This document shows positions 45,629-54,407 of a stretch of 54,812 nucleotides of DNA, one piece after another. Made by a program: the position numbers and the translations under genes. This DNA is from Dehalococcoidia bacterium (lineage in GTDB: Bacteria > Chloroflexota > Dehalococcoidia > Dehalococcoidales > W111): the NCBI GenBank assembly GCA_011191985.1, contig DUEU01000080.1, positions 1-54,812 on the forward strand. The letters are read 5' to 3'. How positions within the stretch are numbered: position 1 is the first letter of the stretch; each line of letters opens with the position of its first letter. The notes under the pieces are model-generated. The model did not search any database, was not told the origin of the DNA, and worked only from the letters and a program-made list of their open reading frames with translations.

Positions 45629-46396
45629 ATGAAGAATTACAAGACAATACTAGTTGAGAAGAAGCCGCCCATGGGTAAAATTACCTACAACCAGCCTGAG
45701 CAAAGAAACGCAATGACCATCGAGATGATCGACGAGGCAACCGATGCTTTTCTCAGATTTGATAAAGACGATGAGGTGCGGGTCATTGTTCTAACCCATA
45801 AGGGTCCTGTTTTCAGCGCTGGGATGCCGCAATCATATGTCTTGGGGAAAGACTATGACACGATTTTGGATATGAGCCGTAGGTTTCACAATTACCACCA
45901 GCTGATAGAGCGAGATATCAGCAAGCCAGTAATCGCAGTTACTGACGGCTTTGGGCCAGCCGACGAGGCTGATATCATTATCGCCAGTGATCGTGCCACG
46001 TACGCGATGCCAGCCATAAACATTGGTTTATTCTGAGGCTGCATCCGATCTAACGCGGTCCGCGTTGGCTACAAAAGAAACAAGAGAATGATCCTCTCGG
46101 GCGATCATATCAGTGCCCAACAGGCCTATGAATGGGGCTATTTTGACGAAGTGGTGCCGCCCGAAAAGCTAGAGGAAACGACCATGGTATGGGTTAAGAA
46201 GCTAGCGAGTAAGAGCCCAATAGCTCTGAAACTCGTGAAGAGGCTCTTCTTTGATACACAGGACATGCCCCCAGGACAAGCATGGCCTTACATAGAGGAG
46301 GTTTTTTGTCGTCATCTCGCCAGCGAAGCTGGCCAGACGGCCATAAGAGCATTTGTGGAAAAGAAGAAACCACCCTGGCTTATTGACATGGACTAA
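45629..46396 (+). pseudogene. Enoyl-CoA hydratase/isomerase family protein with single in-frame TGA (codon 46034-46036); pseudogene or candidate selenoprotein
   Basis: Both halves in the same frame: ...ATYAMPAINIGLF[TGA]GCIRSNAVRVGYKRNKRMILSGDHISAQQAYEWGYFDEVVPPEKLEE... Confidence 0.8.
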
Positions 46397-46770
46397 GGTG
46401 GCGCTGGCGTTACCTCTAGTCAATCAGACGTAAACATCCTATTGTTACATAGGGGATTACTTATGGCTTAGCGTATAATCCGCGTTAAACGTGTGCTATA
46501 AAATGCAGGATTGCAGCCCTAAAAGGCGTGTTTATCTTTATACTACCCCTGGGGTTCGGCGCTGGTATTGACAAAGTTGATTATATTATCACGGCCGATC
46601 ATGCCAACGATTTTCCCTTCATATATCCCCGGGCCATGGCTCGGCGTATTCTTCCAGGGAGCCTCGCCACCTGATGTGTTTAATGATAGCCCGCCGCCGG
46701 CCGGGTGGCGCTTTTGAAATTACGCTTAAATAGTCTATAATATACGGAATATACAACGAGGAGAAAAACG

Positions 46771-50711: not shown

Positions 50712-52832
50712 ATGTATGCGCCGGTGAATGACAAGGCCCAGGACTATCCGACTGGTCATGAGAAAAAGTCCCCCGACCATAGCCTGGTGCCTCCCTGCCA
50801 GACTGCCTGCCCCCTGCATATGGATATCAGGGAATATGTTGACCTAGTTGCCCAGGGGAGGATTATGGAAGCGCTACAGGTTATCAGAACCGGCAACCCC
50901 TTCCCTTCCATCTGTGCCTACGTCTGCACCCATCCTTGCGAGGATGCCTGCCGGCGCTCCCAGGTCGATAAACCTATCGCCATCCGGGCGCTGAAAAGAT
51001 TCGCCGTGGAATTCGGTGGTGACCGAATGGTCCAGGCTGAAGCCGAGACAACACACCAGGAAAAGGTGGCTATCGTAGGGTCTGGTCCAGCGGGACTGGC
51101 CTGTGCCTACTATCTGAGGAGGCTCGGCTATCAAGTAACGATCTTCGAGGCCCACTCGGAACTGGGCGGCATGCTCCGGATAGGCATTCCCCAGTACCGG
51201 CTCCCCCGTGAAGTGCTGGACACGGAGGTCGAGAGACTGACCCGGATGGGGGTTGAAATCAGGACAAATACGCGGGTGGTCTCACTGGACCTGATATTTG
51301 AACTAGGCTACCGGGCTATCTTTATAACGGTTGGTGCCCATCAGAGCCTTAGAATGGGCATAGAAGGAGAAGAGAGCCCCGGGGTAATAGATGGGGCAAC
51401 CTTTCTCCGCGAGGTAAACCTCGGGCTCAAGCCATCTCTGGGGAAGAGGGTGGCCGTGGTGGGGGGAGGGAACGTGGCCATTGATGCGGCCCGTACTGCC
51501 GCCCGGCTGGGGACAAAGCAGGTGACTATTTTGTATCGCCGTAGCCGAGCGGAAATGCCCGCGAGTCCCGGGGAAGTGGAACAGGCCCTGGAAGAGGGTA
51601 TAGAGATCCAGTATCTTGTGTCACCGACCAGAATAGAAAGGGGAAAAGCAAGGCTGACAGTAACCTCCGTAAGGATGGAACTGGGCGAGCCAGACGCTCG
51701 TGGACGGCGACAGCCCGTACCGATCAAAGATAGCGAGTTCAGTGAGGAATTTGATACTTTGATCGCCGCCGTGGGACAGGCACCTCAGACCACGAGTGAC
51801 TTTAGAGTTCGCACTGGTAAGGGGAGCACTATTCAGGTTGACCCGGTCACACTTACTACCAATAGGGCTGGGGTCTTTGCCGGCGGGGATGCGGTAACTG
51901 GGCCAGCGACAGTAACCGAGGCACTAGCGGCGGGCAGGCTGGCCGCGTCCCGTATTGATGATTATCTCCAGCACAGATACCCGCTACCTGACAAAGCAGG
52001 GAGAGACAGGCTGACCGGAGACCTGCTGCCCGAAACGATAGAGATGGTGAGGAAAATCGGGCGAGTTGAGCCACCAGTCCTACCACTTGAAGCCAGAGCG
52101 AAAGACTTCGTGCCAGTGGAGCTCGTCTATGGCTGGGAAGAAGCGGTCAATGAAGCTAGAAGGTGTCTGCGGTGCGGTGTAGGTGTTGAAATCCTATTTC
52201 AAGACAAGTGCGCCACCTGCCTTACCTGCCTGAGGGTGTGCCCGTACCACGTGCCCTATTTGGATGCTCACGGTACGATTCAGATACCGGCTGACCAATG
52301 TCAGGCCTGTGGGATATGCGTTGCCGAATGTCCGGCAAAGGCGATAGTCCTGAGAAAACCGTTTGACCGACGACACGTCACTGAGGAGCTTAGTCATATC
52401 ATCAGGTCTACTGCAGAATCAAAGGGCAAGCCACTTATTGTTGGCTTCTGCTGCCAGTATGGGCTATTTGGCACCGGCACTCTGGCCGGTCTGTGGCGAG
52501 GGGCTAAGGCAGGCGTCTGGATAGTACCGGTCCTTTGCATAGCCAAGGTAGAGGCCGATCACATATTGCAGGCTTTCGAGATAGGTGCCGAGGGAGTTTT
52601 CGTCGCCGGGTGCGGGCAACAATGTGCTAGAGAGAATACTACCGACCGGGTTTACCAGCGTGTTGAAAAGGTCAAAAAGGTACTAGCGCCGATCGGTCTT
52701 GAGCCCGAGCGCCTGCAGGCTTTTGCCTTAGAGACCACTGATGAAGACCCTACCGAGGCGTTAGACAGATTCGTTGAAAAAGTTAGCAGTCTCTGTTTAG
52801 CCTCGGTAATATCGCAGGAGGTGAAGAGTTGA
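50712..52832 (+). CDS. GltD-like FAD/NAD(P) oxidoreductase fused to 2x[4Fe-4S] ferredoxin and C-terminal MvhD/FlpD domain
   Basis: CQTACPLHMDIREYVDLVAQGR; VAIVGSGPAGLACAYYL; VAVVGGGNVAIDAARTA; CATCLTCLRVCPYHVPY/CQACGICVAECPAKAI; VGFCCQYGLFGTGTLAGLWRG...VPVLCIAKVEADHILQAFEIGAEGVFVAGCGQQC. Confidence 0.9.
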   Translation: MYAPVNDKAQDYPTGHEKKSPDHSLVPPCQTACPLHMDIREYVDLVAQGRIMEALQVIRTGNPFPSICAYVCTHPCEDACRRSQVDKPIAIRALKRFAVEFGGDRMVQAEAETTHQEKVAIVGSGPAGLACAYYLRRLGYQVTIFEAHSELGGMLRIGIPQYRLPREVLDTEVERLTRMGVEIRTNTRVVSLDLIFELGYRAIFITVGAHQSLRMGIEGEESPGVIDGATFLREVNLGLKPSLGKRVAVVGGGNVAIDAARTAARLGTKQVTILYRRSRAEMPASPGEVEQALEEGIEIQYLVSPTRIERGKARLTVTSVRMELGEPDARGRRQPVPIKDSEFSEEFDTLIAAVGQAPQTTSDFRVRTGKGSTIQVDPVTLTTNRAGVFAGGDAVTGPATVTEALAAGRLAASRIDDYLQHRYPLPDKAGRDRLTGDLLPETIEMVRKIGRVEPPVLPLEARAKDFVPVELVYGWEEAVNEARRCLRCGVGVEILFQDKCATCLTCLRVCPYHVPYLDAHGTIQIPADQCQACGICVAECPAKAIVLRKPFDRRHVTEELSHIIRSTAESKGKPLIVGFCCQYGLFGTGTLAGLWRGAKAGVWIVPVLCIAKVEADHILQAFEIGAEGVFVAGCGQQCARENTTDRVYQRVEKVKKVLAPIGLEPERLQAFALETTDEDPTEALDRFVEKVSSLCLASVISQEVKS

Positions 52833-53512
52833 TAGTTGCCGAGCAAAAGCCTTTCGAAGAAATAAAACAAATGATTTCTCCTTACGGGAGGGTGCTAATC
52901 CTTGGCTGCGGCACCTGCATGACAGTCTGTGATGCTGGTGGCGAACGTGAGGTCTCCTTTCTCCACAGCGCATTACGGCTGGCACAGACAAAGAGCGGCA
53001 ATGGCACTCATAGCTTTTCGGAATATACTTTAAAGAGACAGTGTGACCCGGAATTCCTGGACCTGCTGGTAGACAAAATCGCCGATGTGGATGTAGTCCT
53101 TTCGCTTGGTTGTGGTATCGGGGTGCAGGCTATAGCCGAGCGGTTCCCGGACCTACCGGTGCTGCCCGGTGTTAATACCTCCTTCATGGGTATGACTAAA
53201 GAATCAGGGGTCTGGGATGAACGGTGTGCCGCCTGTGGCGATTGCCGACTGGACGAAACGGCTGGTATCTGCCCTATTACCAGATGTACCAAGGGAATAC
53301 TTAATGGCCCTTGTGCCGGAACCAAAAATGGTAAATGCGAAGCCAATAAGGACATGGACTGTGCCTGGATCTTAATCTACCAGCGCCTGGAAACACTTCA
53401 CCAACTGGAAAGAATGCGCCGATATTACCCTCCCCGGAACTTCCGGACAATTCCCAGACCAAAGAGGATCCTGCGCCAGGCTAGTATCAATGCAGGAGGG
53501 AGTGATGATTAA
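52829..53512 (+). CDS. metV: MetV-type zinc/iron-sulfur subunit of methylenetetrahydrofolate reductase
   Basis: LILGCGTCMTVCDAGGEREV; VVLSLGCGIGVQAIAERFPDLPVLPGVNTSFMG; CAACGDCRLDETAGICPITRCTKGILNGPCAGTKNGKCE. Confidence 0.88.
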   Translation: MIVAEQKPFEEIKQMISPYGRVLILGCGTCMTVCDAGGEREVSFLHSALRLAQTKSGNGTHSFSEYTLKRQCDPEFLDLLVDKIADVDVVLSLGCGIGVQAIAERFPDLPVLPGVNTSFMGMTKESGVWDERCAACGDCRLDETAGICPITRCTKGILNGPCAGTKNGKCEANKDMDCAWILIYQRLETLHQLERMRRYYPPRNFRTIPRPKRILRQASINAGGSDD

Positions 53513-54407
53513 CTCGTTATTTGAAGAGAAACTCTCCTCAGGTGAATTTGTGGTGACAACAGAGGTCGGGCCGGCCAAGGGTGCTGATACTGCCGACTTA
53601 GTTCATCATATAGATTTGCTAAAGGACAGGGTCGACGCTATAAACGTTACCGACCACCAGAGTTCCGTCATGCGCTTTCCCTCGTTAGGTGGCTGCCTGC
53701 TGGTGAAGGAACACGGTGGCGAACCTATCCTTCAGATGACCTGTCGCGACCGCAACCGTCTGGCGCTTCAAGCTGACCTTCTCCTGGCCTACTCCAGAGG
53801 CATCACCAACGTACTCTGCCTTACCGGAGATTCTATTGACGTGGGGGACCATAAGGAAGCGAAGCCTGTTTTTGACCTGGATTCTGTCCAATTATTGAAG
53901 ATGATCAGGACGCTGGAATCGGGAACAGATATAGAAGGAAACGAACTAAAGGGCGTGCCAAGATTCTATATTGGTGCCTCGGTACATCCGGAAGCAGACT
54001 TTGTTGAGCCACAACTCATCAAATTTGAGAAGAAGGTCTCTGCCGGGGCCCAGTTCTTCCAGACCCAGGGTATATTTGACCTGGCAAGCCTGCGCCGGTT
54101 CATGCAATACGCCGCCCAGTTCAACGTTAAAATACTGGCCGGTATTATAGTCCTCGCCTCTGCCAGGATGGCCCGCTACATGAATGACAATGTTCCGGGG
54201 ATAATCGTTTCCCAGGCCATTATCGATGAGCTGGCTGACGTGGAGAAGGGCAAGGGGCTTCAGAAAGGGATCGAGATTGCGGCCAGACTTATAAAAACCA
54301 TAAAGGATGAAAACCTGTGCCACGGTGTCCATATTATGGCAGTGGGCAATGAAGGTGTGGTACCTGATATCCTGGAGGCAGCCGAGCTGGTTAGTGTGTC
54401 CCCATAG
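53505..54407 (+). CDS. metF: Methylenetetrahydrofolate reductase
   Basis: SGEFVVTTEVGPAKGADTADLVHHIDLLKDRVDAINVTDHQSSVMR; RNRLALQADLLLAYSRGITNVLCLTGD; start overlaps the metV stop. Confidence 0.92.
   Translation: MINSLFEEKLSSGEFVVTTEVGPAKGADTADLVHHIDLLKDRVDAINVTDHQSSVMRFPSLGGCLLVKEHGGEPILQMTCRDRNRLALQADLLLAYSRGITNVLCLTGDSIDVGDHKEAKPVFDLDSVQLLKMIRTLESGTDIEGNELKGVPRFYIGASVHPEADFVEPQLIKFEKKVSAGAQFFQTQGIFDLASLRRFMQYAAQFNVKILAGIIVLASARMARYMNDNVPGIIVSQAIIDELADVEKGKGLQKGIEIAARLIKTIKDENLCHGVHIMAVGNEGVVPDILEAAELVSVSP

Follow-up and report, generated by a model that had tools for sequence, protein, structure and literature searches.

A candidate selenocysteine codon in a divergent crotonase-superfamily gene of a Dehalococcoidia bacterium

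We propose that a single in-frame TGA in a crotonase gene of this Dehalococcoidia bacterium encodes selenocysteine (Sec), so that the gene would specify a selenoprotein of the crotonase superfamily, a reading that we consider probable. It is supported by a SelB encoded in the genome, three Sec-type formate dehydrogenases, a hairpin downstream of the TGA that resembles those of the formate dehydrogenase genes, and a cysteine column at the TGA position in related crotonases. The original prediction had named the gene a selenoprotein candidate with pseudogenization as the default alternative. The hairpin matches the SECIS elements of the genome's own formate dehydrogenase alpha (FdhA) genes, and this match shifts the balance from pseudogene to selenoprotein.

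A crotonase frame with one internal TGA

The gene lies in a contig of 54,812 nucleotides that was analysed over its whole length (the window) and that forms part of a 2.02-Mb metagenome-assembled genome (contig C79 of that assembly), which is estimated to be 95% complete and, judged from its kinship groups and relatives, belongs to the Dehalococcoidales. Two neighboring open reading frames had been read as one crotonase gene in a single frame, and translation bears this out: the only internal stop of the 255-residue frame is the TGA, in the context NIGLF*GCIRSN, and PF00378 covers residues 16-250 of the read-through product (E = 1.2e-39). A Shine-Dalgarno sequence, AAAGGAG, is a good match upstream of the start. 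The gene thus presents what is expected of a bacterial selenoprotein gene, namely an in-frame UGA inside a conserved reading frame. The coordinates of the features discussed here are collected in Table 1.

Table 1. Features of the crotonase gene and its surroundings (positions in the window)
Feature	Position	Strand	Basis
Crotonase (enoyl-CoA hydratase family) gene, 255 codons with the TGA read through	45629..46396	+	ORF translation, PF00378
Stretch around DGFGPADEAD, with a six-residue deletion relative to homologues	45944..45973	+	Alignment, model; roles from PMC13126182
In-frame TGA, residue 136, proposed to encode Sec	46034..46036	+	Cys column conserved in ECHDC3-like crotonases
Proposed bacterial SECIS: 8-bp stem CTAACGCG/CGCGTTGG, GUC triloop	46050..46068	+	Match to the FdhA SECIS form

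Elsewhere in the window TGA is an ordinary stop, ending 11 of the 35 confident open reading frames, and reassignment of the genetic code is therefore ruled out. The same usage would be compatible with the TGA acting as a real stop from which a short N-terminal product is made. We regard this as extremely improbable, since such a product would be a 135-residue half crotonase devoid of the second half of the fold, and since codon usage is maintained downstream of the TGA.

Probable selenocysteine use by the organism

Searching the genome for the Sec machinery, as had been suggested, gave a divided answer. A full-length SelB is encoded (TIGR00475; 393.9 bits where the cutoff is 242) and is the top-scoring SelB among the 61 genomes examined. 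Its gene stands alone (G000 contig C59:49216-51078; L021:1495-3396), apart from selA, selD and selC, and neither selA, selD nor tRNA-Sec (selC) was found in the 95% complete assembly. Among 60 relatives, SelA is present in all 29 genomes that have SelB, and SelB never occurs without it; selC, selD, selA and selB are frequently arranged in one cluster there.

Three FdhA genes of this one small genome carry an in-frame TGA exactly within the ARxU-HS motif. They lie on three other long contigs, C68, C69 and C72; the loci are L085:2132-4924, L084:1706-4768 and, on the minus strand, L086 around 5503. Two of the proteins were scored against NCBIfam and both exceed the equivalog cutoffs (families TIGR01591 / TIGR01553). 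Together, SelB and these three genes make Sec use by the organism very likely, and the missing selA, selD and selC are most simply explained as an assembly gap. Tetranucleotide composition, a weak test, is compatible with these contigs having a common origin.

The downstream hairpin has the form of the genome's own FdhA SECIS elements

A SECIS-like hairpin had been predicted shortly after the TGA, and we find it there. Its arms, CTAACGCG (46050-46057) and CGCGTTGG (46061-46068), form a perfect 8-bp stem, one G-U pair included, around the loop GTC (46058-46060). The stem begins 13 nt past the TGA, and the spacing from TGA to loop is 21 nt. Two of the three FdhA genes have an element of the same form, with a stem of 8 bp (GGTGGCCG-GTC-TGGTCACC) or 9 bp (CGGTGGCCA-GTC-TGGTCACCG) and the GUC triloop 19 nt after the TGA in both. 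The candidate differs from them in belonging to another protein family and in its slightly longer spacing, and in the third FdhA gene the loop is another one, GGC, 23 nt after the TGA. The SECIS elements of SelD in relatives are of another loop type (CGGG) and were for this reason set aside as a template.

We defined a strict template: a GUC triloop on a stem of 8 bp or more, at a distance of 16-25 nt from the TGA. In the candidate's own genome it is found at 3 of 6,750 TGA contexts, which are the candidate and the two FdhA Sec codons. In other genomes it occurs at 1 of 21,872 TGAs, and at none of the 389 that are flanked on each side by 80 or more open codons. Random-codon sequences produce it in 7 of 200,000 cases and synonymous recodings of the candidate peptide in 199 of 200,000. 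All of these frequencies overstate the case somewhat, the template having been defined with the candidate already seen and the candidate having been flagged initially in part on account of its hairpin. The match to independent Sec codons in the same genome is independent of this post-hoc choice.

These counts bear on the possibility that the gene is a recent pseudogene, in which a Cys codon (TGC or TGT) of an already divergent crotonase has become TGA and the hairpin is a coincidence. A hairpin of the FdhA form at the right distance, absent from every two-sided open context and found at about one in 20,000 TGAs of other genomes, argues against this explanation, which we judge unlikely.

The hairpin also agrees with the published bSECIS model, which specifies a loop of 3-9 nt with G in one of the first two positions, a stem of 4-16 bp, a distance of 16-37 nt and a minimum free energy of at most -7.5 (PMC13188914). 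The candidate has 8 bp, a GUC loop, 21 nt and -9.6 kcal/mol, its spacing and loop G both fitting the model. This generic model is passed by 33% of TGA contexts and was dropped as evidence, so it is the stricter FdhA-like form that carries weight. Folding energy was likewise dropped as not discriminating: that of the candidate hairpin is not unusual (z = -0.18), and one FdhA hairpin reaches only z = -0.47. A scan of the window against Rfam gave no match, and a scan of four other loci returned only a tRNA.

Cysteine at the TGA position in ECHDC3-like crotonases

Aligning the read-through product with its homologues places Cys at the TGA column in 36 of 37 close ECHDC3-like sequences, mostly in the contexts GLFC, GMYC or GWFC that are typical of this subfamily. 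The original expectation that crotonases often have Cys near GLF thus holds for the ECHDC3-like subfamily, the closest to the candidate, but not for most other crotonases, which have Pro at this column. The candidate shares the fold of the ECHDC3-like proteins (human ECHDC3, PDB 2vx2; best NCBIfam match PRK08139) and, like them, has no Glu164; where they have the Cys of the GLF-C motif it has the TGA, and its helix H3 is shorter by six residues. It scores 145 bits against the PRK08139 cutoff of 313 and is about 30-40% identical to its relatives.

The unconstrained tree puts the candidate on a long branch (1.35-1.55 changes per site) that is not part of the Cys clade; a placement inside this GLFC (Cys) clade is not rejected (p-AU 0.26), so that the candidate may belong there. 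Judged from these sequences, a Cys-bearing ancestor is likely and a Pro-bearing one also possible. Our searches for a TGA-containing orthologue covered the order (156 genomes), the class (393 genomes) and GTDB contigs and recovered none, a result that would fit a pseudogene; Sec-containing homologues in other organisms support a selenoprotein assignment but are not a strict requirement for it. Close orthologues were likewise not found in GTDB contigs, viral contigs or plasmids. Another crotonase from the same class of bacteria (G719:C129:1925-2677) has one in-frame TAG.

The TGA could also be a sequencing or assembly error standing for an ordinary Cys (or Trp) codon, as it depends on a single base in a single metagenome assembly. 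Such an error would leave the SECIS-type hairpin unexplained, and also why the peptide encoded past the TGA does not follow the homologue consensus STPMVALSR just where the hairpin lies, and we consider it very unlikely.

An intact predicted fold with an altered active site

The AlphaFold model of the read-through product (pLDDT 90.9, pTM 0.89) has an intact fold, and its best PDB matches are crotonases, human ECHDC3 among them. An ECH_1 domain and a crotonase fold, the two marks of the superfamily, are thus both present. The active site is altered. In rat enoyl-CoA hydratase (ECH), helix H3 bears Glu144 and the oxyanion-hole residue Gly141 (PMC13126182); the six-residue deletion takes out most of this helix in the candidate, and with it the second oxyanion-hole NH and the position of Glu144. 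The column of Glu164 is occupied by Ala. An enoyl-CoA hydratase has Glu144, Glu164 and both oxyanion-hole NH groups; as the equivalents of both catalytic glutamates and the second NH are gone here, the protein is no ordinary hydratase and is probably not a hydratase at all.

Loss of the oxyanion-hole helix and strong divergence at conserved positions are also what a decaying gene might show. Altered residues occupy 10 of 33 conserved columns, the most of any row in the alignment, and by position they amount to 2 of 15 before the TGA and 7 of 17 after it. In simulations of neutral drift without indels, 19% of runs accumulated as many conserved-site changes with at most one stop, so the stop count alone leaves decay possible. 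The absence of any frameshift argues further against decay, as do the good ribosome-binding site and codon usage that stays native past the TGA (score -1.14 after and -1.12 before, compared with -1.27 and -1.40 in the other frames). The long divergence was most likely built up under selection for a full-length product. A stop can arise in this gene by 91 different single substitutions, of which only 3 convert a Cys codon to TGA.

Proposed function and relation to known selenoproteins

Under the selenoprotein reading, we infer Sec insertion, SelB binding and any enzymatic activity as follows. During translation, SelB carrying Sec-tRNA would bind to the GUC apical loop of the hairpin, 21 nt downstream of the UGA at 46034, and deliver Sec at position 136. 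Sec136 would then lie in an active-site loop, adjoining the equivalent of Gly172 of rat ECH, at the place where ECHDC3-like relatives have Cys; alignment of motifs suggests that the counterpart of residue 136 immediately precedes Gly172 in the rat enzyme. In some isomerases the loop at Gly172 holds a catalytic glutamate (PMC13126182). With the usual glutamates gone, a selenolate at 136 may have a nucleophilic or redox role, acting on a CoA thioester or a similar ligand. That a crotonase missing its two catalytic glutamates and one half of the oxyanion hole bears an active-site Sec instead, and with it a new selenoenzyme chemistry, is a possibility that we put forward tentatively.

The literature on predicted bacterial selenoproteins yielded no confirmed crotonase selenoprotein. 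One list of such predictions (PMC9312934) has a crotonase/enoyl-CoA hydratase family entry, PRK06023 (KAA1296466.1), credited to Peng et al. 2016, whose main text does not mention the entry. A 2026 review assigns this entry to a DsbA-like domain with a DxxUP motif (PMC13188914). The entry shares with our candidate a crotonase annotation among predicted selenoproteins; the candidate has no DsbA-like domain.

If the proposal is correct, the bacterial selenoproteome gains a fold from which Sec is barely known, and a crotonase chemistry that operates without the usual glutamates would be indicated. It would also raise the question of what role Cys plays in ECHDC3-like proteins, the human ones included. 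Standard pipelines would call a gene of this kind two fragments or a pseudogene.

Neighboring genes

Between the crotonase gene and an FMN oxidoreductase lie about 370 bp without a gene (window 46397-46770); the translation of one frame there, GFGAGIDKVDYIITADHANDFPFIYPRAMARRILPGSLAT, has no match in Pfam. Further downstream (window 50712-54407), an HdrA-FlpD-like protein, a protein with a methylene-THF reductase C-terminal domain (DUF5981) and MTHFR are encoded in a row, probably forming an electron-bifurcating Wood-Ljungdahl module.
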